Below are positions 10,061 to 62,806 of a stretch of DNA of 64,000 nucleotides, in pieces. The position numbers and the translations under genes are program-made. Position 1 is the stretch's first letter, and the number at the start of each line of letters is the position of its first letter. The stretch covers positions 1-64,000 of the forward strand of contig NZ_FNQZ01000010.1 of NCBI RefSeq assembly GCF_900107545.1. Direction: 5' to 3'. The stretch is from Pseudobutyrivibrio sp. ACV-2 (GTDB lineage Bacteria > Bacillota > Clostridia > Lachnospirales > Lachnospiraceae). Below the pieces are notes generated by a model, which was given only the letters and a program-made list of their open reading frames with translations, ran no database searches and was not told the origin of the DNA.

Positions 10061-11116
10061 TTATTTGTTAAACGCGTTTTTCTTTATCCAATTGGATGTA
10101 CGCATTACTATTTCTGCTGCAAGGGTGCTAAGTATAACGAAAAGCATAAACAGCACCACAAAGTCTTTATTACCATAGTCTGTCACGTCACGATAATAGA
10201 AGAATAATATCATGATTGCATGATGTGTAAGTATAACATACCAGCTGATTTTGGATATGTATGCTATCACTTTATAGAATGTTTTTTCTGGGGAAACATC
10301 AACATCCCTCAAGAGTACAAACAGTGTGATAGCCATGGCTGCATAGAATATTTCTTTGATTTCCAACGAAAAATCAACAGGCATCATTTGTGGCATATAG
10401 CCTGCAATCATAAAATAAACAAGTGCTGCTATGAATATAATCAGGCTGATAGTCCTGGCTGGAGGCGAGAATGTTTTGTCGCCAAAATATTTGTACAGGA
10501 ACATGCCAAGATAAAAATATACCACTACAAAAAGCGGATTTTTAAATACCTCAAGTGGGAATGGATTTCGTACGTAAAGGACAAATGCCGACCAGATAAC
10601 TAACGCTGCCAAAGTGATTTTATCAAACCTGTGAAGCAGTCTGGACAAAAGAGGGAACAGCAAATAGCATATGACAATGCAGGACATAAACCACTCTCCT
10701 ATCATGTAGAAATTGGAATGGAGCTGGTTCATAACACCATCAATACCCAGAATAGTATCTATAAATGTATAGGTTCTGGAATAGTAGCCAGGGGTCTTGT
10801 TATTCACAAAGAAATATAAGAAAAACATCATGAAATATGCTACATAAAAAGGTATGTAAATACCCTTGAAGCGCCTGATAAAATAATCCTTTAGAGGGAT
10901 GTTTTCCTCATGGTTGTGCATCAGGGCGTAGCCTGAAATCAGAAACAGAGAAATGCTGGCCGGTCTGGCCATGATATTGAAAAAATAATTCATGTCGGCC
11001 ATGATTTTCTCCTGGCCGCCTGCTGTAAGCAGATAGCTTATGGTGTAGTGATAGGCAAAAATAAACAATACCCCTATTACTCTAAGTATATCTAAACCGA
11101 ATATTCGCTTCTTCAT
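10061..11116 (-). CDS. acyltransferase family 3 membrane protein
   Basis: 351 residues from the ATG at 11116, which has AGGAG eight bases upstream. The longer frame to 11221 starts inside a terminator hairpin and is rejected. The protein has about ten hydrophobic segments and the family-3 opening GLDILRVIGVLFIFAYHYTISYL with the conserved His in the first helix; a TSxxLFLISGYAL-like segment follows near residue 60. Members O-acetylate or otherwise acylate sugars, peptidoglycan or lipids at the membrane. No glycan genes adjoin it here, so the substrate cannot be inferred. Confidence 0.8.
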   Translation of the reverse strand: MKKRIFGLDILRVIGVLFIFAYHYTISYLLTAGGQEKIMADMNYFFNIMARPASISLFLISGYALMHNHEENIPLKDYFIRRFKGIYIPFYVAYFMMFFLYFFVNNKTPGYYSRTYTFIDTILGIDGVMNQLHSNFYMIGEWFMSCIVICYLLFPLLSRLLHRFDKITLAALVIWSAFVLYVRNPFPLEVFKNPLFVVVYFYLGMFLYKYFGDKTFSPPARTISLIIFIAALVYFMIAGYMPQMMPVDFSLEIKEIFYAAMAITLFVLLRDVDVSPEKTFYKVIAYISKISWYVILTHHAIMILFFYYRDVTDYGNKDFVVLFMLFVILSTLAAEIVMRTSNWIKKNAFNK

Positions 11117-11163
11117 TAGGAAAGCTCCTTTAAAAAATTTCTTTAATAAGTATAGTAAAACAG

Positions 11164-11215
11164 GGCATAAAAAAGCAAGCAGAAACCAATACAGATGGTT
11201 TCTACTTGCTTTTAA
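11164..11215 (-). terminator. terminator after the glycerol-oxidation genes
   Basis: Long stem AAGCAAGTAGAAACCA / TGGTTTCTGCTTGCTT (one G-U or mismatch) with T-tract on the minus strand. It lies about 65 bases after the DUF1667 gene and before the acyltransferase start. A degenerate piece of the GC-rich repeat lies at 11222-11277. Confidence 0.85.
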
Positions 11216-11277
11216 TTGCATGATTCATCCGTCACCTAAAAGGCGACACTTTTCACTTATCGCTGAAGGCTAAATGG

Positions 11278-38468: not shown

Positions 38469-39542
38469 TTATTTTAATTTAAGTATATGCTTTTCAAAGC
38501 AATGCCAGCTGATAAATGCAAGTGGTATAACTATCGCTGTGGAAATAATAAAGTTGATGTAGGAGTTCATATTTGGTGCCCGATATCCGTAAGGCACAAC
38601 GCCAAGCCAATCAAGCACAAGCTGCTGCACCAAAAATGAAAGGACGTAAACTCCATAAGAAATATCCCCCACTTTGTTGTAAAGCCTTGATGCTCCGTAA
38701 TAATTGAAGCCCAGATACAAAACTATATAGGAACCAAAGGCAGCAAAGGCTATTTCATAATCAATAAAATAGGATGCTGCAACAATCCCAATAACCGCTG
38801 CAGAAAACCATTTCCAGGACAATATAATTTTGTCTCTGAATATATAAAACAGGATACCCATCTCAAATTGTAAGGAGAGGCGTCCTAAATTTACCAAAAT
38901 AATTGTAGATAAAATGAAAAATCTTTCCTCTGTCCATGCGTATGTGAAAAACAAATAAACCGCTGCAGATAAGGCTATTAGCGGAAAAATCATTTTTTTA
39001 TATTTTCTGAGAATTGGAACCAAAAAAAGTACCAATATGTAACACAGAACTTCGTATTGTAATGTCCATATACTTCCGTTTACGCTGTGATTGATATGAT
39101 GTTCAAAAACCCCTGGAAGTGTGGTGTTGTTATGGTAAAAAACAAGGTTTAAAAGATACCCTTTTATATCCTGTGAAAAATATTCTTTAGGTGAAAGTGT
39201 GCTTATGGCAGGTCCGATTACAAAGGCTGTCGATAAGATGAACAATGCCAAAAGTGGCCAGATTCTAAGGAATCGCGCTCTAAGATATTTTCCTATATTA
39301 TTGCTTCTGTCATAGCTTCTATAAATCAAAAATCCACTTATAACAAAAAAAATGTCCACCCCTACCTGGCCTGATAATGCCTTGTGGAAAGTCAGGGTGT
39401 ACATCAAATCCGACTCAAGCTTGCCCTCGCATAATGCAAATGAATGCATATAGACAACCATCAATGCTGCGAATAATCTCACCAGATTAAGATTGTTGTC
39501 CTTCCCCTGTGACATGAAGTCCAACGTATTTTTATTCTCCAT
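38469..39542 (-). CDS. acyltransferase family 3 membrane protein
   Basis: 357 residues, about ten hydrophobic segments. The N-terminus reads NLNLVRLFAALMVVYMHSFAL with the conserved His of the family; DIFFVISGFLIYRSYDRS follows at about 60-76. OafA-type members acetylate O-antigen or peptidoglycan. It lies just upstream of the 615-residue glycosyltransferase and divergent from the LTA-synthase-like gene, so it probably modifies the glycan of this cluster. The ATG follows a promoter with an extended -10 (39580-39608). Confidence 0.85.
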   Translation of the reverse strand: MENKNTLDFMSQGKDNNLNLVRLFAALMVVYMHSFALCEGKLESDLMYTLTFHKALSGQVGVDIFFVISGFLIYRSYDRSNNIGKYLRARFLRIWPLLALFILSTAFVIGPAISTLSPKEYFSQDIKGYLLNLVFYHNNTTLPGVFEHHINHSVNGSIWTLQYEVLCYILVLFLVPILRKYKKMIFPLIALSAAVYLFFTYAWTEERFFILSTIILVNLGRLSLQFEMGILFYIFRDKIILSWKWFSAAVIGIVAASYFIDYEIAFAAFGSYIVLYLGFNYYGASRLYNKVGDISYGVYVLSFLVQQLVLDWLGVVPYGYRAPNMNSYINFIISTAIVIPLAFISWHCFEKHILKLK

Positions 39543-49077: not shown

Positions 49078-50376
49078 TTATTTAACTCGCTCTACACTGA
49101 CCTGTGAATTCATATCATAAAAACCTACGGTGTTCTTCGAGCTGACCACCGTAATATTCATTATATCGTAAAGCCTGTTGTAGGCCACAAAATCAACTCC
49201 ATCATAGCCAGTGCAGCTAATTGACATAAGATATTCGCCGCCCTGCATATCCATCTTTTGTGTAAAGGTAGCAACGTATTCCTCGCCCTCTTTACACAGA
49301 CCAACATCACATTTTTCGTACATGGTATTAGTGCCCGTGACATCGATACCTTTGATGGTCTTGAAAGTAAGTGTGAATATCGGGTTGTTAATGTCTGTGT
49401 TAAAATGCACCTTTGATTTAACTGTAAAGGTGCTACCCTTTAAAATGGCGTTTGTGTAGTTACCATTTTCATCTATTATGGCAAAATCTACGATTTTGGC
49501 TCTGCCATCACCGTATTCATTGACATTTGGATTCAGCTGATAATGGGACTTCCAAAGAGTGCCATCATCTGAAGGCTGCGCCGCAGACTTTACAGACTGC
49601 TCATTAGCTTCCATTGCCTGGCTAGCCTTGCTGCCAAGATGTGGCTCCTGGCCAACTAAAATCTTTTTATAGATATCAATCATATCCTTTGGAGTGCCTT
49701 CGGCTACTTTATCACCCTTATTAATAAGGATGGCTCTATCGCAATACTTGCTGATAGCACCAAGGTCGTGGGAAACGAAAAGAATGGTCTTTCCTGCTTC
49801 CTTGAACTCCTCGAATTTTTTGTAGCACTTTGCCTGGAAGAATACGTCACCTACAGAAAGGGCCTCGTCAACAATTAAAATCTCAGGGTCGATATTGATT
49901 GCCACTGCAAATGCAAGTCTGACAAACATACCTGAAGAATAAGTCTTGACCGGTTGAAAGACGAAATCTCCAATATCTGCAAAAGCTAGAATCTCGTCAA
50001 GCTTTTCGTCTATTTCCTCGTTGGAATAACCTAACATGGTACCGTTTAAGTATATATTTTCGATGCCGGTGTACTCCATATTGAAACCAGCTCCAAGCTC
50101 TAGAAGAGCTGATATTCTGCCATCTACTGTGACTTCACCATGGGTAGGTGAAAGAACACCTGTGATAATCTTTAATATAGTGGACTTTCCAGAGCCATTG
50201 GTACCGATAAGTCCTACGCATTCACCTTTTTTAACATCAAAGGACATGTCCTTCAGTGCAAAATGCTCCTTGTAATGCTTCTTTTTGGTGAGACCCAAAG
50301 TATCAGCTACTCTGGCCTTATTACTATCAAAAAGCTTGTAGACTTTGTCCACATGCTTTACTTCTATAACACTCAT
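49078..50376 (-). CDS. wzt: ABC transporter ATP-binding protein with Wzt-type C-terminal domain (second ATPase)
   Basis: 432 residues from the ATG at 50376 with GGAG five bases upstream; the frame extension to 50424 is not needed. Nucleotide-binding domain: Walker A GTNGSGKST (about 57-65), YSSGMFVRLAFA signature, ILIVDEALSVGD Walker B and SHDL switch. A linker rich in Ala and Gln precedes a beta-rich C-terminal domain (about 295-430) like the substrate-recognition domain of Wzt. It lies in its own operon without a permease gene. Its partner would be the permease at 53.9-54.7 kb; the second ATPase at 50.6 kb is a paralogue. Confidence 0.9.
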   Translation of the reverse strand: MSVIEVKHVDKVYKLFDSNKARVADTLGLTKKKHYKEHFALKDMSFDVKKGECVGLIGTNGSGKSTILKIITGVLSPTHGEVTVDGRISALLELGAGFNMEYTGIENIYLNGTMLGYSNEEIDEKLDEILAFADIGDFVFQPVKTYSSGMFVRLAFAVAINIDPEILIVDEALSVGDVFFQAKCYKKFEEFKEAGKTILFVSHDLGAISKYCDRAILINKGDKVAEGTPKDMIDIYKKILVGQEPHLGSKASQAMEANEQSVKSAAQPSDDGTLWKSHYQLNPNVNEYGDGRAKIVDFAIIDENGNYTNAILKGSTFTVKSKVHFNTDINNPIFTLTFKTIKGIDVTGTNTMYEKCDVGLCKEGEEYVATFTQKMDMQGGEYLMSISCTGYDGVDFVAYNRLYDIMNITVVSSKNTVGFYDMNSQVSVERVK

Positions 50377-50392
50377 AAATTCTCCTAATGAC

Positions 50393-50457
50393 CAAATTAG
50401 TCCTATTCTGAAACATTTTACCATATTTGCTTATAAAATGAAAATCTGACTAATTTG
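50393..50457 (-). promoter_or_regulatory. promoter-like segment flanked by 10-bp inverted repeats
   Basis: CAAATTAGTC (50393-50402) and GACTAATTTG (50448-50457) are perfect inverted repeats enclosing 45 bases. Inside, reading toward the ATPase gene, lie TTCATT (50437-50442) and TAAAAT (50415-50420) with a 16-base spacer. It starts 17 bases upstream of the ATG. It could be an operator, a leader hairpin, or a site for DNA inversion. Confidence 0.5.
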
Positions 50458-50472
50458 TATCGAATTACTATT

Positions 50473-50527
50473 AAAAAGAGAGTTTTGTCATCTATAAGCA
50501 TACGCTATAAATGACAAAACTCTCTTT
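50473..50527 (-). terminator. strong terminator of the exporter operon
   Basis: A very long stem (AAAGAGAGTTTTGTCAT / ATGACAAAACTCTCTTT with further pairs) with a short loop, followed by TTTTAA on the minus strand, about 31 bases after the first Wzt-type ATPase gene. It splits the cluster into two operons. Confidence 0.93.
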
Positions 50528-50557
50528 AATTTTTCTAAACTCGCTTGAAAACCAAAA

Positions 50558-51784
50558 TCACAACTTAATGCTTCCCCAAGAGTTTGCTCGCCACTTAAGC
50601 TCTCCAGGAATATGATTACGTTCTATTGTAAGTTCAAGACCTCGTACACAATCCAAATCCACACCTTCATCATAAGGATTGAGAACGTATACTGTGTAGA
50701 AGGTTTTATAGGTTCCCGGCTGAATCATTGATAAATCCACAGTTACTTCAAATTCGCCTTCCTCTCCTGCAATTCCACCTATTACATTTTCAAAAATCTG
50801 TGTTGCAAATGGGTGGTCACTGTCAGACATAAACTCAACTCGTATACCTGCATTTTGAACATTGTTTATATTTTTATATTTAAATAATAGACGCATCTTA
50901 TCATCAGAAAATACGTTATTATCCTTGTCAATATATTCAGCCCAAGTAAGTCTCACATCATCTCTTTGAAGCCAACCTGGTCTCATATATTTAGTGTAAT
51001 CTGAGGTGGTTTCTGTTTTGTACTTTACACCATTATACAGTTTAACAGCTTCATCTACTGAACCGTCAAATGCAAGTCTGCCATGCTGCAAAACTATACA
51101 TCTATCACAAAGATTATGTACTGTATCCATATTGTGGCTGACGTACAGGATTGTTCTTCCCTCGGTCTTTGCTATTTCACGCATTTTGTCTAAGCATTTA
51201 TGCTGAAACTTGATATCTCCAACTGCCAGTACCTCATCCATTATCATAATATCGGAGTCAAGATGAGCCGCCACCGAAAAAGCCAGTTTTACATACATTC
51301 CAGATGAATATCTTTTAACAGGAGTATCAATGAATTCAATGCACTCAGAAAAATCGATAATAGAAGCAAGTTTTTCATCTATTTCCTGTCGACGCATTCC
51401 CAAAATTGATCCGTTGAGATAAATGTTTTCTCTTCCGGTCAGTTCGGGATGAAAACCGGTTCCAACCTCTAGCATACTTGATACTTTTCCATCGATATAT
51501 ATATTTCCTCTTGTTGGAGATGTGATACGTGATATTAACTTTAACAGTGTAGATTTACCAGCGCCATTTGAACCGATGATTCCTACACATTCACCACGAT
51601 GTATTTCCAGTGAAACATCATCCAGCGCAGTAAACACTTTATTATGTCCCTGTAATGTATCATCAACACCTTTGCTTTTTAATTTTCGCCGGCGCAGAGC
51701 ATCCTTAAATGTTTCTCCAGTAACAGTTCCTAAAATATAGTCTTTACCTACATTTTCTATTTTTAAAACTACATCATTGTTCAT
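50558..51784 (-). CDS. wzt: ABC transporter ATP-binding protein with Wzt-type C-terminal domain (first ATPase)
   Basis: 408 residues from the ATG at 51784, which overlaps the stop of the previous glycosyltransferase by 11 bases (coupled translation); the extension to 51829 would start inside that gene and is not favoured. Walker A GSNGAGKST, signature YSSGMYVKLAFS and Walker B IMIMDEVLAVGD are intact. From about 265 a Wzt-like C-terminal domain follows. Wzt ATPases with Wzm permeases export undecaprenyl-linked polysaccharide. It is in the same operon as the permease (53.9 kb). Confidence 0.93.
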   Translation of the reverse strand: MNNDVVLKIENVGKDYILGTVTGETFKDALRRRKLKSKGVDDTLQGHNKVFTALDDVSLEIHRGECVGIIGSNGAGKSTLLKLISRITSPTRGNIYIDGKVSSMLEVGTGFHPELTGRENIYLNGSILGMRRQEIDEKLASIIDFSECIEFIDTPVKRYSSGMYVKLAFSVAAHLDSDIMIMDEVLAVGDIKFQHKCLDKMREIAKTEGRTILYVSHNMDTVHNLCDRCIVLQHGRLAFDGSVDEAVKLYNGVKYKTETTSDYTKYMRPGWLQRDDVRLTWAEYIDKDNNVFSDDKMRLLFKYKNINNVQNAGIRVEFMSDSDHPFATQIFENVIGGIAGEEGEFEVTVDLSMIQPGTYKTFYTVYVLNPYDEGVDLDCVRGLELTIERNHIPGELKWRANSWGSIKL

Positions 51785-52709
51785 CAAAATCGTTTCCTCT
51801 AATTCCAATATCGGCCCACTTTTTGGCATACTTGGTGTTTCTCAAGTAATCCAACTGCTTACCTAAATCCTCTGCACTTAAATCTCTAAGCTTATATTCG
51901 ATATGAAATCCTATGAGATTGCTAAAAAATACCTTGAAATCTTTTACCAATGGCTTGTTATAGGATTTGCATTTTTCATAGAAATACTCGCTCAATTTAT
52001 ACAATTTTATCAACATAGTATCCAACGACGCTTTGTTGACTAGTGATCCAGGTGTAATTCTATAAAAATAAAGCATATTGCATAGCTTGAATATGGTCTT
52101 AACATGAAGCAAATATTCAAGAGTAAAGCATAAATCTTCTGCAAAAATTATCTTAGTATCTACAAAACGAATATTATATTCATCAATAATGCTTTTCTTA
52201 TATATTCTTCCACAAGCTTCCCAACCATCTCTATACAAACTTAAATGATTACAAATATAGTCACTCAAATCTTTATCCTTTGGAAAGCTTTGTCCGTGAT
52301 TTTCAACAGAATAAATTACCTTATCACCTATATTTCCTTCTACATCAACTCGTCTAAAGTTGTATGTATACATTTGCGCATCACATTCACTTTTAGCATC
52401 CTCAAGCAAAGTAAAAAAATCCTCTGAAATCATATCATCGCTATCTACAAAGACAATCCATTTTCCCTTAGCAACTTCAAGCCCTGCGTTTCTTGCAGAA
52501 GAAAGGCCACCGTTTTCTTTATGAATAACCCTGCACCCTCCCTCATACTCTGCTGCAAATTCATCGCATATTTTTCCTGAATTATCAGTACTTCCATCAT
52601 CAACTAAGATGATTTCATAATCCCTAAAATTCTGTTTTGAAACAGAGCTTAGACAAGCTTTCAAATAAGATTCTGTATTATAAACCGGAATTATAACACT
52701 ATATTCCAT
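51774..52709 (-). CDS. glycosyltransferase family 2
   Basis: 311 residues. Very typical GT-A opening VIIPVYNTESYLKACLSSVSKQNFRDYEIILVDDGSTDNSGKIC and ARNAGLEVAKGKWIVFVDSDDMIS with DxD at about 94-96. A helical C-terminal region follows. Its stop overlaps the first ATPase start. It lies between the GT4 gene and the exporter ATPase, so it belongs to the exporter operon. Sugar unknown. Confidence 0.92.
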   Translation of the reverse strand: MEYSVIIPVYNTESYLKACLSSVSKQNFRDYEIILVDDGSTDNSGKICDEFAAEYEGGCRVIHKENGGLSSARNAGLEVAKGKWIVFVDSDDMISEDFFTLLEDAKSECDAQMYTYNFRRVDVEGNIGDKVIYSVENHGQSFPKDKDLSDYICNHLSLYRDGWEACGRIYKKSIIDEYNIRFVDTKIIFAEDLCFTLEYLLHVKTIFKLCNMLYFYRITPGSLVNKASLDTMLIKLYKLSEYFYEKCKSYNKPLVKDFKVFFSNLIGFHIEYKLRDLSAEDLGKQLDYLRNTKYAKKWADIGIRGNDFDEQ

Positions 52710-52727
52710 TAACTCACTCTCTTTAAA

Positions 52728-53867
52728 CTAATTAAAAAGCTTTTCAATTTCTGAGACTCTCTTATCAAAATCTATAATCTTTTTTCTCTCAGAAATTTTT
52801 TCTTTGTAGTAACTATGAAGTTCTGGGTTATCCAGTACTCTTTTCATATTTTGGTAAATTCCGTCCACCCCTATCGGCATAACAATACCGTATTCGCTGT
52901 CACCTAAAAGTTCTCTAGCACCAGAGCAGTCAGTTAAAAGCATAGGCACATCTAGAATTGCAGCTTCTTGACTTACCAACGAATACCCTTCGAATATAGA
53001 GCTTGAGATAAACCAATCCGCGATAGCCATGTATTTATATGGATTTTTTCTTCCACCTATAAATTTACAGCTCTTCGCACCTGTTTCTCTAAGGGTCTTC
53101 TGAATTCTTTCATATTCATCTCCACCCCATTTCCCTTTAGAGCCAATAACTATAATTTCAAAGTTATAACCCTCATCTTCAAGCATTTTAGCCGCCTGTA
53201 TAAGAAGAGTGTATCCTTTCTGCTCATTCAATCTACCTACAGAAATAAATCTTACCGGACGCTTTTCTTCAGGAAGATTCATTGAGTCAATATCTGTTAC
53301 CAGTTCCTTGGATCTTTTTATTATATGATCCACATTTATTGGATTATATCTAACAATAAGATTTCCAGGGTTACCTATCACATCACTGACACCCTTTTTA
53401 ACATCCTTGGCCACGCAGACAATATTGTCGTACTTCTGCATAACCTTAACTTCGTTTTCTTCATTTCCAAATATATATTTTGAATCATAATGACTATTGT
53501 AATCAGTATGATTCCATGCAAATTTTTTAGGGATATTGTATCTGGTACCTCTCCAAAGAGGCCAACCATCCTTCATGCACAGCAGGACATCAAATCCCAT
53601 GACATTTACCATATGCTCAACTATGGCTCTGTATGGTTTTCTCAACCAAAACCAAAAACCTTTCTCAGCGTCAGGATCTTTTATCCATTTTGAAAGACTT
53701 AGGTACGCTACATCACTAGGATAATAATCATAAAAACGTTTATCATAATCAAAGGTCATAATGGTAATATCATACTTTTTATGCCATGCCCACACTAAAT
53801 CGTACATGAGCTTTTCTACCCCTCCGCCCACGACAATATCATTTGTAAACAGAATTTTTTTCTTCAT
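52728..53867 (-). CDS. glycosyltransferase family 4 (copy B)
   Basis: 379 residues with two Rossmann lobes (GT-B). Family-4 features: FTNDIVVGGGVEKLMYDLVWAWHKKY at the N-terminus, FISVGRLNEQKGYTLLIQAAKML (about 212-234), SSSIFEGYSLVSQEAAILDVPMLLTDCSGARELL (EX7E region, about 295-330). It is strongly similar all along to the 384-residue protein at 54.7-55.9 kb (both share GVEKLMYDLVWAWH and the segment beginning ILTDCSG), so the two are tandem duplicates separated by the permease gene. AGGAG lies before the ATG. Confidence 0.93.
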   Translation of the reverse strand: MKKKILFTNDIVVGGGVEKLMYDLVWAWHKKYDITIMTFDYDKRFYDYYPSDVAYLSLSKWIKDPDAEKGFWFWLRKPYRAIVEHMVNVMGFDVLLCMKDGWPLWRGTRYNIPKKFAWNHTDYNSHYDSKYIFGNEENEVKVMQKYDNIVCVAKDVKKGVSDVIGNPGNLIVRYNPINVDHIIKRSKELVTDIDSMNLPEEKRPVRFISVGRLNEQKGYTLLIQAAKMLEDEGYNFEIIVIGSKGKWGGDEYERIQKTLRETGAKSCKFIGGRKNPYKYMAIADWFISSSIFEGYSLVSQEAAILDVPMLLTDCSGARELLGDSEYGIVMPIGVDGIYQNMKRVLDNPELHSYYKEKISERKKIIDFDKRVSEIEKLFN

Positions 53868-53890
53868 AGCACTCCTTATTTTTTATACTC

Positions 53891-54733
53891 CTAGATAATA
53901 TCTATGAAATCCTTTTCAGTCTGATTAAACAATACTACTGCTGCCATTGTTAGCACCAATGTAAAAATAGTACTGTACAACAGAGCCAACACATTAATCT
54001 CTCCTGTACCTAACACGCAATAACGAAATGCCTCTACAAAAGACGAAATTGGATTAATATATACCACTCCCTGAATAAATTCTGGCAACTGACTAGAAGA
54101 ATATATAACAGGTGAAACATACATCATCACTGTAGTAAGTAACCCCACCATATGCGAAAAATCTCTATATTTTATAGTTATACATGAAACAATCAGTCCC
54201 ATCGCTGTTCCCATCATGGACATTAAAAATGCTATAGGTATAACAAACAGGATTTTTGCTCCTATCATCTGAGCATCTCCAGCCAAATAAAAGAATAGCC
54301 ATGCAACCATAGTCACTATAAACTTGATTCCTACTCTTATAGCATTAAATAGGATATTTGCGATTGGCATTATAAGTCTTGGGAAATATACCTTGCCAAA
54401 AAGATAACTGTTTTCCAGCAGAACTCCTGTATTGCTTCCAAAACAGCTAATAAAGAAATCCCATACCACACTTCCCGTCATGTAAAAAAGAAAATACGGT
54501 GTTCCATCCGATGAAAATTTACCTACATATCCAAATACAAAGGAAAAAATTCCTGAATTGATAATTAAACTAAAAATCAACCATAATGGACCTAATATTG
54601 TCTGTTTATACTGAACCTCATAGTTTCTTTTAACTAAAGTCCACACTAATTCTCTGTATTTAATAATTTCCTTTACCGGCACCCTAAACAATGGAACCTT
54701 TGGCTCTATAACCGTTGTCCAATTCTTATTCAT
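53891..54733 (-). CDS. wzm: ABC-2 type polysaccharide export permease
   Basis: 280 residues, six membrane helices. It starts with KEIIKYRELVWTLVKRNYEVQYKQTILGPLWLIF, the standard cytoplasmic and first-helix text of Wzm/TagG permeases, and ends with VVLFNQTEKDFIDII. The ATG at 54733 follows GAGG; codons further upstream (TTG 54745, ATG 54739) lie in the same frame inside the preceding gene, so the exact start is uncertain. It overlaps the end of the GT4 gene. It forms the channel for the two Wzt-type ATPases. Confidence 0.93.
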   Translation of the reverse strand: MNKNWTTVIEPKVPLFRVPVKEIIKYRELVWTLVKRNYEVQYKQTILGPLWLIFSLIINSGIFSFVFGYVGKFSSDGTPYFLFYMTGSVVWDFFISCFGSNTGVLLENSYLFGKVYFPRLIMPIANILFNAIRVGIKFIVTMVAWLFFYLAGDAQMIGAKILFVIPIAFLMSMMGTAMGLIVSCITIKYRDFSHMVGLLTTVMMYVSPVIYSSSQLPEFIQGVVYINPISSFVEAFRYCVLGTGEINVLALLYSTIFTLVLTMAAVVLFNQTEKDFIDII

Positions 54734-55880
54734 TTTCATCCTCAATCAACTTTTCAATTTCTCTAATACGTTCCTGATAAGTAATGATTTTCTTTCGCTC
54801 CATAATCTTGTTTTTGTAATATTCATGAAGACTCGGGTCATCCATTACTCTCTTCATAGCTTTATAGATTCCTACAACATGTATTGGAGTAACAATTCCA
54901 TACTCGCTGTCACCAAGCAGCTCTCTAACTCCTGAGCAGTCTGTAAGAATCATTGGAATATCAAGCAGTGCTGCTTCCTGGCTCACAAGAGAATATCCCT
55001 CATAAATAGAACTTGAAATAAACCAATCTGCAGCTGCAATATATTTGTATGAGTTTTGACGTGGTCCTATAAACTTACAACTGGTAACACCTGTTTTATA
55101 TAATCTTTCCTGAATCTTCTCATATTCATTGCCCCATGGTTCTCTTCCACCAATAACAATTACTTCGAAATTGTATCCTTCATCTTCCAGTGCTCTACAA
55201 GCTTCAATCAAAAGAGGATACCCCTTTTGATCATTAATTCTGCCTACACTGACAAATCTAAATGGTTGTTTATCCTTTGGTAATTCCAACGAATCAATAT
55301 CCACTACCGGTTCCTTGGCCTTTTTTAATACATTCTCAATATTGATTGGATTGTATTTAACAATAAGATTCCCTGGGTCACCTATAACATCACATACACC
55401 TTTTTTTATATCCTGGGACACACATATTATATTTTTAAACTGCTGCATGGCTTTGACTTCATTTTCTTTACTGCCAAAAATGTGCTCAGTGTAATAATGA
55501 TTATTGTAATCTGTATGGTTCCATGCATATTTCAAAGGAATATCGTATTTTAATGCACTTAATAGCGTTCCACCATCTTTCATACAAAGCAAAACATCAA
55601 AATTCATCTTTTTGATTTTGCCCATAAAAGTACGCTCATATATTTTACGATTGATATAGCTATAGACATGAACAACGAAATTTGATTTATACTCCTTTGG
55701 AACGCTTTCAGAGATATATCTAACATCCGTAGGATACTGGTCGTAGAATGACTCATCATATTTATAGGTCATGACAGTGATGTCGTATTTTTCGTGCCAT
55801 GCCCATACTAAATCATACATAAGTTTTTCCACGCCACCACCATAGGCTAAATCATTCATTATAAGAATTCTCTTTTTCAT
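54726..55880 (-). CDS. glycosyltransferase family 4 (copy A)
   Basis: 384 residues, GT-B fold. It has IMNDLAYGGGVEKLMYDLVWAWHEKY at the N-terminus, FVSVGRINDQKGYPLLIEACRAL, IGPRQNSYKYIAAADWF, and SSSIYEGYSLVSQEAALLDIPMILTDCSGVRELL. It is a near twin of the 379-residue protein at 52.7 kb. It ends overlapping the permease gene. The upstream gene is the acyl carrier protein, so this is where the decoration cassette joins the exporter operon. Confidence 0.93.
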   Translation of the reverse strand: MKKRILIMNDLAYGGGVEKLMYDLVWAWHEKYDITVMTYKYDESFYDQYPTDVRYISESVPKEYKSNFVVHVYSYINRKIYERTFMGKIKKMNFDVLLCMKDGGTLLSALKYDIPLKYAWNHTDYNNHYYTEHIFGSKENEVKAMQQFKNIICVSQDIKKGVCDVIGDPGNLIVKYNPINIENVLKKAKEPVVDIDSLELPKDKQPFRFVSVGRINDQKGYPLLIEACRALEDEGYNFEVIVIGGREPWGNEYEKIQERLYKTGVTSCKFIGPRQNSYKYIAAADWFISSSIYEGYSLVSQEAALLDIPMILTDCSGVRELLGDSEYGIVTPIHVVGIYKAMKRVMDDPSLHEYYKNKIMERKKIITYQERIREIEKLIEDENE

Positions 55881-55913
55881 TGATGGTTCCTTCTTTTATT
55901 CCTATAAAAATAA

Positions 55914-56150
55914 CTAATCCATTTTGCTCTCAGTTGTTTGAATGAGATCAGCAATGTTTCTTATTTTTGATAAATCATCAGACGAAAACTTAATTCCGTA
56001 TTTCGCTTCAATATCTCCAATGATCGTCATTATCTCAATCGATGAAAGACACAAGTCGTCTATCATCGCACTATCTAATGTAACTTCATCCTCTGGTATA
56101 TCTGCTATATCAATTATTATTCCCTTAATTGATTCAAATAATTCATTCAT
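55914..56150 (-). CDS. acyl carrier protein
   Basis: 78 residues. The four-helix carrier pattern is clear, with the phosphopantetheine site at Ser37 in DDLCLSSIEIM, where the common D-S-L is replaced by S-S-I. Acidic as usual. GGAGG lies nine bases before the ATG. It is preceded by the acyl ligase gene (24 bases apart) and followed by a glycosyltransferase, not by fatty-acid genes, so it is a dedicated carrier for the ligase. Confidence 0.92.
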   Translation of the reverse strand: MNELFESIKGIIIDIADIPEDEVTLDSAMIDDLCLSSIEIMTIIGDIEAKYGIKFSSDDLSKIRNIADLIQTTESKMD

Positions 56151-56174
56151 TTTCTAATTCCTCCAACTATATAA

Positions 56175-57593
56175 CTATCGTTTAATCTTTCCACTTGCTG
56201 TTTTTTCGAACTCCGTTTCTCTAAATTCTATAAAGTATATCTTTCTATATGCAGGCTGAGTTTGATTGAGGTTACTTATGTATTCCCTAATGTTCTGCTC
56301 ATCCTGGTTATTTGCATACACCTCAATAGCAATTCGATCTTTTTTTTCGAAAACTTTACACTCTTTCACTAAAGGATTTTCGTATACCTTAGACTCGATT
56401 TCTTCTGGACTGACATTTTCCCCGCCAGAAAGAATGATTAAATTCTTTTTTCTTCCAGTAAGGTAAACATACCCATCCTCATCGATATAGCCCAAATCAC
56501 CAGTATAAATTACTCCATCATTCAAACAGGCTTTTGTCTCTTTAGGGTTATTATAATACCCCAACATGTTGCTCTGTGATTTAACACATATTTCACCATC
56601 TATACAAAATATTTCTGTTCCATCTACTGCTTTGCCTATTGAATCAACATGTTTTCCCATATCATAATTTATTGCTGAAGCATTACCGCTTTCCGTCATA
56701 CCATAAAATTGGCAAACCGTAATATCGTTTTCCTTAAAAAGCTTCACGATATGTGGATCTATGCTTGCGCCACCTGAGCCAATATGTTTCGGGTTACCAA
56801 TACGTTTTTTTTGTCCTCGTTTGATAAAATTAGCCCACATTTTCATCATGGCGGGTGTTATAGTTGCATAATCCACTGTAATATTTTCTAAATCTGCTAA
56901 AATATGTTTAACATCTTTGCTCATGCACATTGTGCAACCATACGAAGTCCAACTAAGCCAAAAACTAAGTCCCCCAATGTGGTATAGAGGGAAATTAGTA
57001 TATGCCTTCAAATTCACCTCATTTCCTGCATTATTCACATATTCAAAAGGTAACAATGTTCTTATGCTTCCAAACAAGCTCATGGCTGATAGTGCTACAC
57101 CTTTCGAAAAACTAGTTGTACCAGATGTAAACAGTATAAGAGAAAGTTTTTCACCCTCGTCATCTACAAAATCATGTAATTCTTTTTCAGCAACAGAGTC
57201 AAAAATGTCATCAAATAACTGCTCTTCAATAATAATAGGCAAGTCTCTAAACGCTTTTTTCTCAGCCTGTTCTGAACAAATTACCAAATCACCATCAGCC
57301 TTTTTTACTGCGAACTTCAAATTTTCAGAGTTTTCATAATTATTCAAAGGAACAGCCACGGCACGAGAAAAAATAATCGCACTAAGAAGAACTATATATC
57401 TATAATCGCTATCTGCTAAAAGGCATATATGTTTTCCTTCAATACGGCCAAGCTTTTCCTCTAACTGATATGCACATCTTCTAATGTCACGAAGATAATC
57501 TGAATATGTCCAATTGTCCACATTCGAGCCATCTAGCATCTTTACGGCTGTTACATCGTTATGGTTTTCTAGTAATTTTAAATATTGAAGCAC
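56175..57593 (-). CDS. AMP-forming acyl ligase, copy 2
   Basis: 472 residues from the GTG at 57593, which has GGGGG eight bases upstream and gives the same length as its paralogue; a GTG at 57602 lies in the same frame. ANL superfamily: FTSGTTSFSKGVALS (P-loop), YGMTESGNASAI, YTGDLGYIDEDGYVYLTGRKKNLIILSGGENVSPEEIE and a C-terminal TASGKIKR lysine motif. These activate a carboxylic acid with ATP and load it on a thiol, here probably the carrier protein directly downstream. The substrate is not evident. It is highly similar to copy 1 at 58.2-59.6 kb, most of all in its last 110 residues. Confidence 0.92.
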   Translation of the reverse strand: MLQYLKLLENHNDVTAVKMLDGSNVDNWTYSDYLRDIRRCAYQLEEKLGRIEGKHICLLADSDYRYIVLLSAIIFSRAVAVPLNNYENSENLKFAVKKADGDLVICSEQAEKKAFRDLPIIIEEQLFDDIFDSVAEKELHDFVDDEGEKLSLILFTSGTTSFSKGVALSAMSLFGSIRTLLPFEYVNNAGNEVNLKAYTNFPLYHIGGLSFWLSWTSYGCTMCMSKDVKHILADLENITVDYATITPAMMKMWANFIKRGQKKRIGNPKHIGSGGASIDPHIVKLFKENDITVCQFYGMTESGNASAINYDMGKHVDSIGKAVDGTEIFCIDGEICVKSQSNMLGYYNNPKETKACLNDGVIYTGDLGYIDEDGYVYLTGRKKNLIILSGGENVSPEEIESKVYENPLVKECKVFEKKDRIAIEVYANNQDEQNIREYISNLNQTQPAYRKIYFIEFRETEFEKTASGKIKR

Positions 57594-57599
57594 TCCTAT

Positions 57600-58080
57600 C
57601 ACCCCCCCTTCTGCCTATTCGGCTTTTATATATTTCTATAAATTTTATCAACATCCTCAAAGCTATTGCTATCATTTCTACTGTGTGAATACACATAAAA
57701 TATAGTGAATATCGTCCTAAATATCTTATTGTGTTTGATATTTTTCCGCTAACTGACTTATCAACTCGCAAAAAAACATATGCCACACCTATTCCTAATA
57801 GACCATTTACCATAAAACTAATTGGTCCTAAAGAATAGCCATCATATCCTATTCCTGCCTTTATCCCTAAAATAGCTTGAATTGTATTAGGAATTGCCAC
57901 TAGAAGTGCATATATACATATAGATTCCTACTGTGCTCTGAAGTTAGCACTTTATTTTTTCTGATGTAGTAACCCATATAAACATCCAAAACTCCAACCA
58001 ATCCCCGCGACAACCCAAAAGGAGTGAAACCTATAGCAAACAAGAGACTACCAATAATCACTAATCCCTTATAAATTACT
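57600..58080 (-). pseudogene. decayed acyltransferase family 3, second copy
   Basis: Translations on the minus strand match the C-terminal half of the intact acyltransferase at 59.6-60.8 kb: FTPFGLSRGLVGVLDVYMGYY (near 57990-58050), then, after a stop and frame change near 57915, ILGIKAGIGYDGYSLGPISFMVNGLLGIG and RYLGRYSLYFMCIHTVEMIAI. The N-terminal half is missing. At the 3' end, one missing base before the ligase start (GGGGGTGATAG against GGGGGTCGATAG in the intact copy) removes the stop frame. It marks an old duplication of acyltransferase-ligase-carrier. Confidence 0.8.
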
Positions 58081-58089
58081 TAATTACTT

Positions 58090-58140
58090 AATTAGTTTTC
58101 CCTTTAATAGACTCAATGAGTTCACCTATATTTCATTCAT
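58090..58140 (-). pseudogene. decayed acyl carrier protein, first copy
   Basis: The minus strand begins ATGAATGAA like the intact carrier gene, with an AGAGGACA site upstream, but then breaks; a fragment translates as E-L-I-E-S-I-K-G-K, close to ELFESIKGI of the intact protein, before stops. It lies right after the copy 1 ligase, in the place of a carrier gene. Confidence 0.7.
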
Positions 58141-58162
58141 TCTCTATGTCCTCTTTTGATTG

Positions 58163-59581
58163 CTAGCGTTTAATTTTTCCACTTGCCGTTTTATCAAATT
58201 CAGTATCCCTAAATTCTACAAAGTATATCTTTTTATACGCTGGCTGCGTTTGATTGAGGTCGCTTATGTACTCCCTAATGCTCTGCTCATCCTGGTTATT
58301 GGCATACACTTCAATAGCAATTCGATCTTTTTTCTCAAAAACTTTACACTCTTTAACTAGAGGGTTTTCATATACCTTAGATTCAATTTCCTCTGGACTA
58401 ACATTTTCTCCTCCAGAGAGAATGATTAAATTCTTTTTTCTTCCAGTAAGGTACACGTAACCAGCTTCATCTATGTAACCCAAATCGCCAGTGGAGATTA
58501 CTCCGTCTTTCAGACAATCCTTAGTTTCTTCGGGGTTATTATAATAGCCAATCATGTTACTCCAAGATTTAATACATAATTCCCCATCAACAAAATTGAT
58601 ATCTACACCATCCATAGCTTTTCCTATTGAGTCAATGTGGTTTTCCATGTCATAATTTACCGTGACAAGATTACCAAGTTCAGTCATTCCATAACATTGA
58701 GCAACAGTGATATTATTATCCATAAAGAATTTACTGAGAGTAGGCTCAATCAACGCTCCACCAGATACCACATGTTTTGGATTACCTATACGTTTTTTTT
58801 GACCTCTCTTAATACAATTTACCCACATTTTTAATATGGCAGGTGTCACAACTGCGTAATCAATGGTTATATTCTCTAAATCTGAAAGCATATGCTTAGG
58901 ATCTTTACTCATACAAATTGTGCAACCATTTTGAGTCCAACTGAGCCAAGCGAGAATTCCTCCAAGATGATACATAGGGAAATTAGTATACCCTATTGAA
59001 TTTAAGGCATCTTCTGTACCATTCATATACACAAGTGGAAGGAACTTTCTTTTATTTCCAAACAAGCTGAAAACTGATAATTCAACTCCCTTTGAAAGAC
59101 TTGTGGTTCCAGAGGTAAATAAAATAAGTGCTAATTTATTTGCCTCTTCATCTTTAAAATCAAATAATTCTTTTTCAAGTGGCGACACTGCCATACCATC
59201 AAATAGCGTCTCTTCGCTAACCAATAGCAAATCCTTAAATGTGCTTTTCTCTGCATATTCTGAAAGAATTAAAATATCAGATTCAACTTGATTAACAGCA
59301 AATAATAAATTTTCAACGGTTTCTAAATTATTCAATGGAACAGCCACAGCGCGAGAAAAAATAATTGCACCAAGAAGAACCATGTATCGATAATCGGTAT
59401 TGGCTAAGATACATATATGCCTCCCTTCAATAGGACCAAACTTTGCCTCCAGCTGATATGCACATCTTTTCATATCATGAAGATAATCTGAATAGGTCCA
59501 ACTATCTACATTAGGACCATCTAACATCTTCACAGCATATGCATCTTTATGGTTTTCAAGTGTTTTTAAATACTCTAGCAT
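58163..59581 (-). CDS. AMP-forming acyl ligase, copy 1
   Basis: 472 residues, ANL superfamily: LILFTSGTTSLSKGVELSV, GMTELGNLVTVNYDM, STGDLGYIDEAGYVYLTGRKKNLIILSGG and the C-terminal TASGKIKR motif. Activates an acid as the acyl-adenylate for transfer to a carrier thiol. Its own carrier gene is reduced to a fragment, so it may use the intact carrier encoded downstream. It follows the acyltransferase by 2 bases. The TESGN of copy 2 is TELGN here; both have the C-terminal lysine, so neither looks inactive by motif. Confidence 0.92.
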   Translation of the reverse strand: MLEYLKTLENHKDAYAVKMLDGPNVDSWTYSDYLHDMKRCAYQLEAKFGPIEGRHICILANTDYRYMVLLGAIIFSRAVAVPLNNLETVENLLFAVNQVESDILILSEYAEKSTFKDLLLVSEETLFDGMAVSPLEKELFDFKDEEANKLALILFTSGTTSLSKGVELSVFSLFGNKRKFLPLVYMNGTEDALNSIGYTNFPMYHLGGILAWLSWTQNGCTICMSKDPKHMLSDLENITIDYAVVTPAILKMWVNCIKRGQKKRIGNPKHVVSGGALIEPTLSKFFMDNNITVAQCYGMTELGNLVTVNYDMENHIDSIGKAMDGVDINFVDGELCIKSWSNMIGYYNNPEETKDCLKDGVISTGDLGYIDEAGYVYLTGRKKNLIILSGGENVSPEEIESKVYENPLVKECKVFEKKDRIAIEVYANNQDEQSIREYISDLNQTQPAYKKIYFVEFRDTEFDKTASGKIKR

Positions 59582-59583
59582 TC

Positions 59584-60750
59584 CTATCGACCCCCGCTTC
59601 TATACATATGACTTTTATAGATTTCTATAAATTTAACCAAAATCTTCAAAGCAATTACTATTATTATCAATCTGAAAATGTATAAAATTACAAAACCTAA
59701 AACTGGCTGATTAATCAACTTTTCAGCAATGACATACCAAGGAACAGCTATCATTTCTACAGTATGGATACACATAAAATATAATGAATATACTCCTAAA
59801 TATCTCAAAGCGTTTGCTATCTTCCCATTAAACAGCTTATTAATTCTTAGAAAGACATATAACACACCTATTCCTAATAGGCCACTTTCTATATATGTTA
59901 CTGGTCCTAAAGAATAAACATTATCTGACATTTCGGTTATCATTCCCAATGCAACTAGAATAATATTAGGTATTATTACAAATGAAGTATAATTAAAGAG
60001 GTTTTTTCTACTATGCTGTGATGTCAGCGCTTTATTTTTCCTAATGTAATACCCCATATAAACATACAAAACTCCAACTAATCCTTGAGACAAGCAAAAA
60101 GGTGTGAAGTCCGTATAACTCAATAGCCACCCTATGATTGATAAACCTAAAGCATAATATTTAATTTTTGCTTCATCGACAACACTTAATAAGATATTAA
60201 AAATGCCCAATGCCCAGAATAACGCTAAAATAAACCAAACAGGCCCATTAGCAAAGATGATAATGTTTTCAAATTGAACAGTTTGCGAAAATCCTAATAA
60301 CATTCCAGCAAGTACTTTTAAACTTTCTTGAAAAGCACCAGGTAAGTACCTAAAGAAACAAAAATGAATAATAATGTTAAATAACACAGTAACAATAGTG
60401 GTCCATAAATAAGGCTTAATCAGCTCCTTCATCTCTAAAGAAAAATTCTTTAAAATTGGTCTTTTTCGAACACTATATCCTGACAAAATAAACATTGCTG
60501 GCATCAAAGAAGCTAATACAGCACCTAAAACTGAAATACATATTCCAGCAATAATAGATTTTTCAAAAACAAATGGTATGTTTTTTAAAGTGCCTGATTC
60601 ACTATACTTTGTGATAATATCAATCATCAACATAGGAAAATTTGATCTGTTGTGCATTAGCACAATCAGCACCATTGCTATTCCTTTAAATAAGTCAAAC
60701 ATTCCAATGGATGTTGTAACCGGACTATTCAACTTTCTGAATATTTTCAT
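59584..60750 (-). CDS. acyltransferase family 3 membrane protein of the decoration cassette
   Basis: 388 residues, about ten hydrophobic segments. FDLFKGIAMVLIVLMHNRSNFP with the conserved His near residue 33 is the family-3 opening; AMFILSGYSVRKRP follows at about 85. The ligase start is only 2 bases from its stop. Paired with an AMP ligase and carrier protein, it probably accepts an acyl group from the carrier or a lipid and puts it on the exported glycan, a job analogous to DltB but in an unrelated family. GAGG lies eight bases before the ATG. It is the first gene of the exporter operon. Confidence 0.88.
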   Translation of the reverse strand: MKIFRKLNSPVTTSIGMFDLFKGIAMVLIVLMHNRSNFPMLMIDIITKYSESGTLKNIPFVFEKSIIAGICISVLGAVLASLMPAMFILSGYSVRKRPILKNFSLEMKELIKPYLWTTIVTVLFNIIIHFCFFRYLPGAFQESLKVLAGMLLGFSQTVQFENIIIFANGPVWFILALFWALGIFNILLSVVDEAKIKYYALGLSIIGWLLSYTDFTPFCLSQGLVGVLYVYMGYYIRKNKALTSQHSRKNLFNYTSFVIIPNIILVALGMITEMSDNVYSLGPVTYIESGLLGIGVLYVFLRINKLFNGKIANALRYLGVYSLYFMCIHTVEMIAVPWYVIAEKLINQPVLGFVILYIFRLIIIVIALKILVKFIEIYKSHMYRSGGR

Positions 60751-60816
60751 ATATTAAACCTCAGCTATCTTTAATTCGTTGTATTGTCACATAATGTAGC
60801 GTAATAAGCGTCGAAT

Positions 60817-60845
60817 AGTATACCATATTATTTTCATTTACATAA
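60817..60845 (-). promoter_or_regulatory. promoter of the exporter operon
   Basis: TTATGT (60840-60845, minus strand) and TATACT (60817-60822) with a 17-base spacer and TGG before the -10 (extended -10). Transcription would start near 60810, about 60 bases before the acyltransferase. The -35 is poor. Confidence 0.55.
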
Positions 60846-60939
60846 TCGTAATAATGCACACATTTTATAACTCTGCAATTATTCTTTTATTCACCTTGTT
60901 ATAATCTACTTACTTGCTAGGCAACGATATAATTAAGTC

Positions 60940-60984
60940 AAAAAATACACCCCAAAACTGCAATTATATTGCTGTATTGGGGTG
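60940..60984 (-). terminator. terminator after the 587-residue membrane protein
   Basis: CACCCCAA / TTGGGGTG stem with an inner GCAAT / ATTGC stem and six T on the minus strand; 6 bases after the stop. Confidence 0.9.
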
Positions 60985-60989
60985 ATATT

Positions 60990-62753
60990 TTATAATATCC
61001 TGTCTCTAAATAGTTCTTCATGATGAGGGTATATTTCATCAAAATGCTTGGCTATAAGCTCCAAATCATTTATAGAATAATCCGATACTCTTTCATATAT
61101 TTTAATCGTTAATCCACCATCAATATCGTAAGACTCAATTAGATTGTAATGTTTTCCAATATGTGATTCAGTGTTAATTATTTCAGTATTAATGTATCTA
61201 AGTATCTCTTCACCGTTGTTATAAGTACAACTAGGTGAGTTACACGCTAAAACATAATGAGCACTTAAGAAACTACTTGGAAAACCATCTCTTAAGTCCA
61301 CATCAGACACAAACGAAGCACTCGGGGTGGCATTTATTATTTCAGGCAATCTTACATTTCTTATAGTATCCGAATTAAACAATTGCTCACCAACAGCAAC
61401 ATAGGTATCATTTTTTTCTTGGGTACGAGAATTAATTGAATCCACTATTTTATTAACATTTACTATATCTTCTCTAACAAGAGGAAAATGCATATAGGAC
61501 GCTTCTTTATATTCTCCTTCTTTCATTATAAAATGTCCAAATCCAACAATTATAAAATCTACTACTAATAGTACAGTGAGTATATTTATCCGTACTTTTA
61601 TCTTTTTCGATTCATTATAAAAATCAAATATTAATATCTGTAGAATAAAGAATCCAGTGGCCCAAATTAAGCCATGTTGAATACCTGGTGTTTGGACATT
61701 CAAAAACGAACAAAAAGTAGAAATAGTTAATATTAATATAATTACTAATTGATTTAAATACTTTCTATTTACAATACATATATATACTGAAACACAAAGA
61801 AGCACAACATGCATAACACTTTGGTATACCATAAGCGAAAGAAATGATACTATAAATGGTAATTTATAGGCTGTAAAAGCTTCACCATTTGACATAATAG
61901 TATTTAATAAAAAGTCTTTAAAAAATATAAGTAGAACGCATAAACTAATCCCACCTATTTCCAAGAAATTAAAAACAGTAGTCTTTATAATCACATTAGA
62001 CTTTTTCTCTTGCTTTATATAATCATATATAGCTTTATAAATCATTGTAACGACATATCCCACTACGAAAAACAAAGCATATCTTCTGGATATCCAAGCT
62101 AAAAGTAGCAGTAAACTAACAAAGACATTTCTAACATGATCAATTTTAGAAAAATCAAATTCTAGTAAATAAAAAATTGCTAATGAAATAGGTATAAGAA
62201 TCGCTACATCTATCATTCCTCTAAGAAGTGCTCTATAGAATGTGCAATATATCACTCCTAGAAAAATAGATAGGCAAAATACAGAACTGGCATTTTTATT
62301 TGATAATAATCGAACAGCTAATAAACCATGCAAAATAAGCGCTGGTGTCAAGAAAAAAAATGCTACTACTGTAACATAATTAACAAATCCAGCTCCGGTA
62401 AAATGCAAAGGCAACGCTATTACAGAAGGTAAATACGTGTTATAGTCATCAAAGTTAATAGAATACCAAAGTGATTTTAAACCATCCATAAAATTAACAC
62501 TAAATAGCAGATTTGTCCTATCGATAGAGTTCTTCCAGTATCCTGCCCAATCCCAAGTGTATATAGTATTATCTTGACTAACTGTAAATCGTACAAAGAA
62601 AATACAATATAATAGCAATCCAATAACAATAAATACTTTTTTTATATCAATCGTATTGACAACCTTTTTTACTGCAACTTTAGCTGGTGAATGCCAAGTC
62701 ACAATCGCTATGAATATATAAAAGGTTAGAAAATAAAAAATACTACTTATCAT
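60990..62753 (-). CDS. large polytopic membrane protein, probably GT-C type glycosyltransferase-like
   Basis: 587 residues from the ATG at 62753, which has AGGAG nine bases upstream; the extension to 62804 begins near the predicted transcription start and is rejected. About eleven membrane helices end near residue 425, followed by a soluble extracytoplasmic domain of about 160 residues (SASFVSDVDLRDGFPSSFL...). TWDWAGYW after the first helices resembles the acidic first loop of GT-C enzymes (the D/E residues there could be catalytic). The AT content is higher than neighbours, hinting at transfer. No exact family is recognised. It has its own promoter and terminator. Confidence 0.65.
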   Translation of the reverse strand: MISSIFYFLTFYIFIAIVTWHSPAKVAVKKVVNTIDIKKVFIVIGLLLYCIFFVRFTVSQDNTIYTWDWAGYWKNSIDRTNLLFSVNFMDGLKSLWYSINFDDYNTYLPSVIALPLHFTGAGFVNYVTVVAFFFLTPALILHGLLAVRLLSNKNASSVFCLSIFLGVIYCTFYRALLRGMIDVAILIPISLAIFYLLEFDFSKIDHVRNVFVSLLLLLAWISRRYALFFVVGYVVTMIYKAIYDYIKQEKKSNVIIKTTVFNFLEIGGISLCVLLIFFKDFLLNTIMSNGEAFTAYKLPFIVSFLSLMVYQSVMHVVLLCVSVYICIVNRKYLNQLVIILILTISTFCSFLNVQTPGIQHGLIWATGFFILQILIFDFYNESKKIKVRINILTVLLVVDFIIVGFGHFIMKEGEYKEASYMHFPLVREDIVNVNKIVDSINSRTQEKNDTYVAVGEQLFNSDTIRNVRLPEIINATPSASFVSDVDLRDGFPSSFLSAHYVLACNSPSCTYNNGEEILRYINTEIINTESHIGKHYNLIESYDIDGGLTIKIYERVSDYSINDLELIAKHFDEIYPHHEELFRDRIL

Positions 62754-62806
62754 TAAGCCGATCTCCTTATACCTGCCATACATAATATGCAACGAAATGC
62801 CCATGT

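Follow-up and report, generated by a model that had tools for sequence, protein, structure and literature searches.

Can a transmembrane acyltransferase of family 3 (AT3) take its acyl group from a dedicated acyl carrier protein (ACP) instead of from coenzyme A (CoA)? This question is raised by a gene cassette of Pseudobutyrivibrio sp. ACV-2, a rumen-type member of the Lachnospiraceae, on the reverse strand of a 64,000-nucleotide stretch of DNA (contig NZ_FNQZ01000010.1, positions 1 to 64,000) that is referred to here as the window. The cassette comprises genes for an AT3 membrane acyltransferase of 388 aa (59584-60750; PF01757, 47.5 bits at a cut-off of 31), an AMP-forming acyl ligase of 472 aa (ligase 1, 58163-59581; PF00501, 141 bits), a second ligase of 471 aa (ligase 2, 56175-57590; PF00501, 140.5 bits) and an ACP of 78 aa (55914-56150; PF00550, 40 bits). 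A preliminary description of the DNA had recognised a trio of AT3, ligase and ACP at the start of an exporter operon, and the Pfam matches bear out these genes and those of the exporter; the second ligase, a relic of a second AT3 and a duplication had escaped it. Our assessment leans slightly towards the cassette being a carrier-fed transmembrane machine for glycan acylation.

The window AT3 retains the catalytic motif of its family (K22-X10-H33). In the cassette clade of AT3s, the histidine of the first transmembrane helix (TMH1) is invariant (26/26), and its partner is Lys in 23 proteins and Arg in three; Lys instead of Arg is found in only 5 of 40 controls. A second motif, RXXR, is highly conserved. 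Wherever its arginines were tested they proved essential, and simulations of OafB have the residues R14 and R74 holding the 3'-phosphate of CoA (PMC9833829, PMC12423673). In the window AT3, the RXXR positions in TMH3 are occupied by E106 and E109. The protein thus lacks RXXR and belongs to PF01757 by its profile match and catalytic motif, yet it is divergent. None of the 31 AT3s adjoining a ligase or carrier gene has a basic residue at either position, and 24 of them have Gln at the first. Among 55 other AT3s, the first position is basic in 46, the second in 38 and one or both in 53; the two exceptions are L174, which falls into the cassette clade, and L189, which has a gap or Ser there. Three further carrier-less AT3s include two with a basic RXXR residue and one (L206) without. 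The phosphopantetheine arm of a carrier has no such 3'-phosphate, and we interpret the absence of RXXR as the signature of a switch in donor. We give even chances to the proposal that this AT3 clade exchanged acyl-CoA for a dedicated ACP and thereby provides, on an unrelated fold, an equivalent of DltA-DltC-DltB in which several interchangeable ligases charge a single carrier with different acids.

The AT3s that adjoin a ligase or carrier gene are related to each other. In a tree of 86 AT3s computed with a quick method, these 31 proteins and L174 form one clade (SH-aLRT 100). This first tree included the RXXR columns and labelled L174 as a cassette member, with neither ligase nor ACP within 1.5 kb of it; in the RXXR count and the repeat tree, L174 is scored as non-adjacent. 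When the RXXR stretch is omitted, adjacency to a ligase or carrier gene can be mapped on the tree with two changes (the clade and L174), compared with a mean of 25.6 after shuffling, and the clade keeps its SH-aLRT of 100 without the RXXR columns and without the long rows L177 and L179. Fragments (L188, L194), partial or misaligned sequences (L184, L192) and duplicates (L167-L172) are left out of the tree and the RXXR counts. Thirty controls are the top PF01757 scorers, one per genome plus one, a choice biased towards the canonical motif. The genome of strain ACV-2 itself has 16 PF01757 matches, namely two cassette proteins, two that were already controls, three partial sequences that were not used (L163-L165) and nine that were added as controls; each of these nine, the weakest of which scores 47 bits, is basic at one RXXR position. 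A scan for the spread of the clade through 381 genomes of the class and 388 of the phylum, in which up to five first-look candidates were scored per genome and members may thus have been missed, gave at least three matches outside the family at E ≤ 1e-20 (L206, L207, L210), and none of these three has a ligase or ACP within 1.5 kb.

The AlphaFold model of the window AT3 (pLDDT 87.1, pTM 0.87) has its best PDB match, found with Foldseek, in HGSNAT (8jkv) at a probability of 1.00, yet with an E of 0.016 and a TM-score of 0.42. The protein resembles AT3s of the OafB/OatA type (PF01757/TmAT) in its PF01757 match and its R/K-X10-H motif, and possibly in its fold, for which HGSNAT is the nearest solved structure. 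It differs from them in the lack of RXXR and in the nearby ligase and carrier genes, whereas the published donors of that type are acyl-CoAs. The window encodes two more AT3 proteins (10061-11221 and 38469-39542), neither adjoining a ligase or ACP gene, and the one at 38469-39542 carries a canonical R-F-L-R motif.

The other motifs named in the preliminary description were also found, FTSGTT in the cassette ligase and Ser37 in the carrier. In alignments, Ser37 falls on the serine that takes the phosphopantetheine group, a residue conserved in all of 17 cassette ACPs, so that PF00550 and the predicted site mark a dedicated carrier; the genome has three matches to phosphopantetheinyl transferase families. 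The ligases of the clade have TSGTT (26/26), YGxTE (24/26) and GRKK (26/26), and with PF00501 and the P-loop, A5 and A8 motifs they are ANL enzymes. The AlphaFold model of ligase 1 (pLDDT 90.3) matches MenE best among PDB folds, and DltA (3e7w) appears at Foldseek rank 31. A reading as fatty-acyl-AMP ligase was set aside in view of the length of 472 aa and the best solved relatives, which are MenE, FadD13, MatB and feruloyl-CoA enzymes.

Which acid the ligases activate is partly constrained by comparison with DltA, in which an Asp (Asp205 in the organism's own DltA-like enzyme) presumably holds the amino group of the substrate. In that column, the 26 clade ligases have Ile (13), Val (6), Ala (5) or Leu (2); the residue one column before it is His in all 26, and none has Asp or Glu within three residues of the column. 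Because these residues replace the DltA Asp throughout, an alpha-amino acid is unlikely to be the substrate. Butyrivibrio has butyroyl lipids. For butyrate as the acid, no bearing paper was present among the matches listed, as judged by titles and the starts of abstracts, and it is not claimed here.

The same comparison bears on the possibility that the cassette is a Dlt member that adds D-alanine. The order of the chemistry is the same, since in DltABCD, too, an AMP ligase loads a dedicated carrier and a membrane acyltransferase moves the group outward onto a surface polymer, and the ligase model also matches 3e7w. However, the cassette has an AT3 and not the MBOAT protein DltB, its ligases are devoid of the amino-acid Asp, and Pfam and NCBIfam revealed no DltD from 49078 to 62804 (a protein of 604 aa at 60990-62804 is without matches). 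Neither ligase has a DltA model among the 25 best NCBIfam matches listed for it. Moreover, contig C26 of the genome (L166:3307-7903) carries a separate Dlt-like operon, with DltA-like (PRK04813, 299.8 bits), DltC-like (PRK05087, 37.3 bits) and DltB-like (TIGR04091, 149.9 bits) proteins, all below cut-off, and a fourth protein without an NCBIfam match that is read as SGNH-type. Membership in the Dlt system is rejected in view of the AT3 in place of MBOAT and of the residues replacing the DltA Asp, and we regard addition of D-alanine by the cassette as scarcely credible. What stands of the comparison is the Dlt-like logic proposed in the preliminary description, with an AT3 for MBOAT and no DltD recognised at the locus; it is strengthened because the trio co-occurs and its AT3s lack the CoA-binding RXXR residues.

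The cassette is more than a chance arrangement, because many genomes have these genes together; it is a real, recurrent gene set. The ligase clade (E ≤ 1e-90) is present in 15 of 29 genomes of the genus. At 16 of the 24 loci examined (the window and L046-L068), AT3, ACP and ligase lie within about 4 kb of each other, seven (L050, L051, L054-L057, L066) have the ligase without AT3 and ACP, L055 being a 4.9-kb contig whose far side is unseen, and one (L068) is cut by a contig end. Several gene orders occur, and at L049 four genes separate the ligases from the ACP. Two AT3s each are found at L058-L062 and L114, and two ligases with one intact AT3 in the window, L048, L049 and L113. The closest named record, Pseudobutyrivibrio xylanivorans DSM 14809 (L047; L009 is the same stretch), has a ligase with 73% identity in the order ligase-ACP-AT3-GT4-ABC2-GT4-GT2-Wzt. 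A third clade ligase with its own ACP and AT3 is encoded on contig C38 of the ACV-2 genome (L046), and the trio is also present in Butyrivibrio sp. AC2005 (L010). In a scan of the family, in which up to four candidates were scored per genome, at least 18 of 397 genomes have the ligase at E ≤ 1e-80, and a plasmid search with the ligase gave no matches at 1e-40. At L067 (8988-10384), the ligase is split into two open frames and has one TGA, and the adjoining ACP and AT3 look intact.

The preliminary description had proposed a genome search for the trio beside Wzm/Wzt genes. By reading of the neighbourhoods, glycan genes adjoin nine of the 16 trio loci of the genus (the window, L047, L052, L053 and L058-L062) and are absent at seven (L046, L048, L049, L063-L065, L067); the trio is thus not tied to an exporter. 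The undescribed acylation of a surface polysaccharide that the description had suggested is plausible at the window locus. Six of the seven (L048, L049, L063, L064, L065, L067) lie downstream of genes read as nucleoside-uptake and HD-GYP-type, and L046 has by the same reading Fe-S and Met-transport-type neighbours. Such surroundings, including those of the organism's own L046, and L114 in which no glycan genes were recognised either, favour the view that the trio acylates a general envelope component, such as a lipid, a teichoic-like polymer or an undecaprenyl-linked intermediate, and that the adjacency to Wzm/Wzt is incidental. We consider this improbable, in that the window ACP gene is 33 bp from the first glycosyltransferase gene, the close relative L047 retains GT4-ABC2-GT4-GT2-Wzt beside the trio, and related sets of other genera sit in polysaccharide loci. 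In another genus of the Lachnospiraceae, the AT3-ligase-ACP set is part of a capsule-type locus that also encodes a CpsD-like protein (L115). Flippases adjoin the set in L117 and L201, the order in L201 being ligase-ACP-AT3, and by reading L116 has AT3-ligase-ACP beside a polymerase-like membrane protein, and L197 has AT3-ligase up to the contig end beside a flippase-like protein. In L199, again from another genus, AT3-ACP directly follows a Wzt-type ATPase in a Wzm/Wzt locus, with no ligase in its 18 kb; in L202, AT3-ACP is beside a flippase with a ligase about 9 kb away, and L113 comes after an ABC exporter. L200 is too short for its context to be read.

The two intact ligases of the window are 72% identical and enclose a stretch of 572 bp that reveals part of the history of the locus. 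It contains the remains of another AT3 gene after a 26-nt segment resembling an ACP start, annotated here as a reverse-strand pseudogene (57591-58153). Direct repeats spaced by about 1990-2080 bp span ligase, AT3 and ACP start. In blastn comparisons, the relic matches the AT3 gene at 74% over 366 columns (E 1e-64) and at 79% over 115 columns, the latter piece extending into the start of ligase 2; its AT3 part has an internal deletion and in-frame stops. The segment 58128-58153 matches the ACP start at 85% over 26 nt (E 7e-4). The listed open frame of ligase 2 begins at 57602, and the gene start is taken as the GTG at 57590. The present content of one AT3, two ligases and one carrier is probably what decay has left of a tandemly duplicated AT3-ligase-ACP set. 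The AT3-ligase part of this duplication is firm, and the 26-nt match suggests that the ACP was probably included. In the simplest history, the trio was duplicated, and the first ACP and the second AT3 subsequently decayed.

The ligases that appear to share the remaining carrier have diverged unevenly. Ligases 1 and 2 are 66% identical over residues 1-372 and 93% over residues 373-472, a border picked after inspection of this very pair, and the tandem pair of L049 has 66% in the core and 86% in the C-terminal domain. The window pair has the largest difference between core and C-terminal domain among 47 clade pairs with a core identity of 0.55-0.75, for which the mean is only 0.08. In 46 pairs of ligases partnered with a condensation-domain protein, the difference ranges from -0.13 to 0.16, and pairs from unlike kinds of loci differ little (e.g. 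L048/L050, 63% and 65%). The C-terminal likeness of the window pair is not merely the result of fresh gene conversion, because third codon positions in this stretch are only 69% identical. We infer that the C-terminal domain may be constrained by the shared carrier and that the core may vary with the acid.

From these features, a pathway can be proposed whose loading reaction, donor, acid, direction and acceptor are all inferred from sequence. Either of the two AMP-forming ligases would adenylate a carboxylic acid, probably one without an alpha-amino group, and hand the acyl group over to the ACP at its Ser37-bound phosphopantetheine arm. The acyl-ACP would dock at the cytosolic face of the AT3, with its K/R-X10-H kept and RXXR absent, and the carrier arm, instead of CoA, would enter the pore. 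The acyl group would thereby reach the other side of the membrane and be attached to a hydroxyl group of the glycan made and exported by the GT4, GT2, Wzm and Wzt products.

Several observations weigh against a carrier-fed AT3. The loss of RXXR and the coupling to a carrier track one clade and, on the tree, are a single event and not many. The loop between TMH2 and TMH3 is still basic, with a mean net charge of 5.4 in the clade versus 3.7 in the others, and the Lys or Arg of TMH1 is retained, so that the clade AT3s may bind CoA in a different manner. The clade member L174 has neither ligase nor ACP on its 14.9-kb contig piece; L206, outside the clade and carrier-less, also lacks the basic RXXR residues, and L189 has a gap or Ser there. 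The ligases resemble CoA ligases (MenE, FadD13) at about 18-24% identity, and their preference for ACP over CoA is presumed. Seven trio loci are without glycan genes. In a second explanation, the ligases make acyl-CoA, the AT3 uses it as the studied AT3s do, and the ACP has no part beyond storing or channelling the acid, or else acts for another enzyme. The closest solved ligase relatives are indeed mostly CoA ligases, the ligase occurs without ACP or AT3 at seven of 24 loci, and a review gives acyl-CoA as the demonstrated AT3 donor and speaks against ACP in this role (PMC9558356). We judge this explanation possible but rather unlikely, since all 31 cassette AT3s are without a basic residue at either RXXR position, a carrier with an invariant Ser37 steadily adjoins them, and an ACP-start relic stands at the head of the window's duplicated stretch. 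The cassette works, in our view, like Dlt without being a Dlt member, and its AT3 clade is probably carrier-fed.

Among known systems, the tetronate genes wbeK-wbeO of Vibrio cholerae O1 also pair a dedicated ACP with a ligase and an acyltransferase to decorate an O-antigen sugar; the acyltransferase there is a soluble enzyme acting on a nucleotide sugar and not a membrane AT3. The exosortase-A-associated acyl ligase (TIGR03098) is likewise encoded near exopolysaccharide genes. It is not among the 25 best NCBIfam matches listed for the cassette ligases, and it is not known to have an AT3 partner. No paper linking an AT3 to a dedicated ACP and ligase was found among the titles and abstract beginnings listed from open-licence papers.

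Sister sets occur in Clostridia as triplets of a condensation-domain protein, an ACP and a ligase (L071, L072, L075, L083, L088-L095 and others). Their ligases and carriers are related to those of the cassette, and a PF00668 protein takes the place of the AT3 as transfer enzyme, as confirmed in both of the two condensation-domain proteins checked. Of 49 further ligase rows, 28 are condensation-partnered according to our own profile, nine have an AT3 and 12 have neither in the stretch examined. In the ligase tree, which is unrooted, omits frames of more than 620 aa and includes two row pairs that share a locus each (L069/L086, L074/L202), AT3-partnered ligases are on several branches and condensation-partnered ones nearly on one; no direction of exchange is claimed. 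Ligase and carrier thus seem to form a module that can be combined with more than one kind of transfer enzyme. These triplets lend some support to the idea that the cassette is a small starter module for a natural product or lipopeptide that came to lie beside an exporter by chance. This is very unlikely, as no polyketide synthase or nonribosomal peptide synthetase gene was noticed in the trio loci read and the AT3 is a membrane enzyme from a family known for surface acylation.

In the window, the operon plausibly starts with the AT3 gene, because a terminator-like hairpin with a U run on the reverse strand (60925-61000; folding dG -23.6, z -4.9) separates it from the upstream gene for the 604-aa membrane-type protein; this hairpin is absent from the output of a simple terminator scan. 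Ligase 1 follows the AT3 gene after 2 bp. Past the ACP gene, the operon continues on the same strand, with gaps of -56 to +33 bp, through a GT4 glycosyltransferase (54726-55880; PF00534, 81.7 bits), an ABC-2 permease of the Wzm type (53891-54745; PF01061, 75.9 bits), a second GT4-type glycosyltransferase (52728-53867; NCBIfam GT4-type matches below cut-off), a GT2-type glycosyltransferase (51774-52709; NCBIfam glycosyltransferase matches below cut-off) and a Wzt/TagH-like ATPase (50558-51829; PF00005, and PRK13545 with 194.6 bits, below its cut-off). A second Wzt-like ATPase with a Wzt_C domain (49078-50424; PF14524, 140.4 bits), also on the reverse strand, is set off by 133 bp. An ABC-2 permease and Wzt-type ATPases beside glycosyltransferases, recognised by Pfam and NCBIfam, identify an ABC (Wzm/Wzt) export locus. 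The region 50001-62000 has a GC content of 0.30-0.36 and a GC skew of -0.18 to -0.32; the preceding 2-kb steps have 0.36-0.45 and -0.14 to +0.01.

Just past the window lies a gene for an FkbH-domain protein (TIGR01686, 248 bits, over cut-off; L044:906-2681, corresponding to G000:C25:64906-66681), and a gene for another ABC-2 permease comes after it. Enzymes of the FkbH type put glyceryl groups on an ACP, and the nearest ACP seen to this protein is that of the cassette. Glyceryl loading is mentioned here as a side observation, as no relative of the protein was found among the open frames of any other examined locus.

Surface-acylating enzymes of the AT3 family are widespread, and the clade described here makes the question of their donor directly testable. 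If the proposed reading is true, two membrane folds, MBOAT and AT3, have each given rise to acyl transfer from a carrier, and the cassette would represent a new way to decorate the cell surface. As a set that can be searched for in genomes, it offers a handle on the acyl groups of surface polysaccharides in the Lachnospiraceae.

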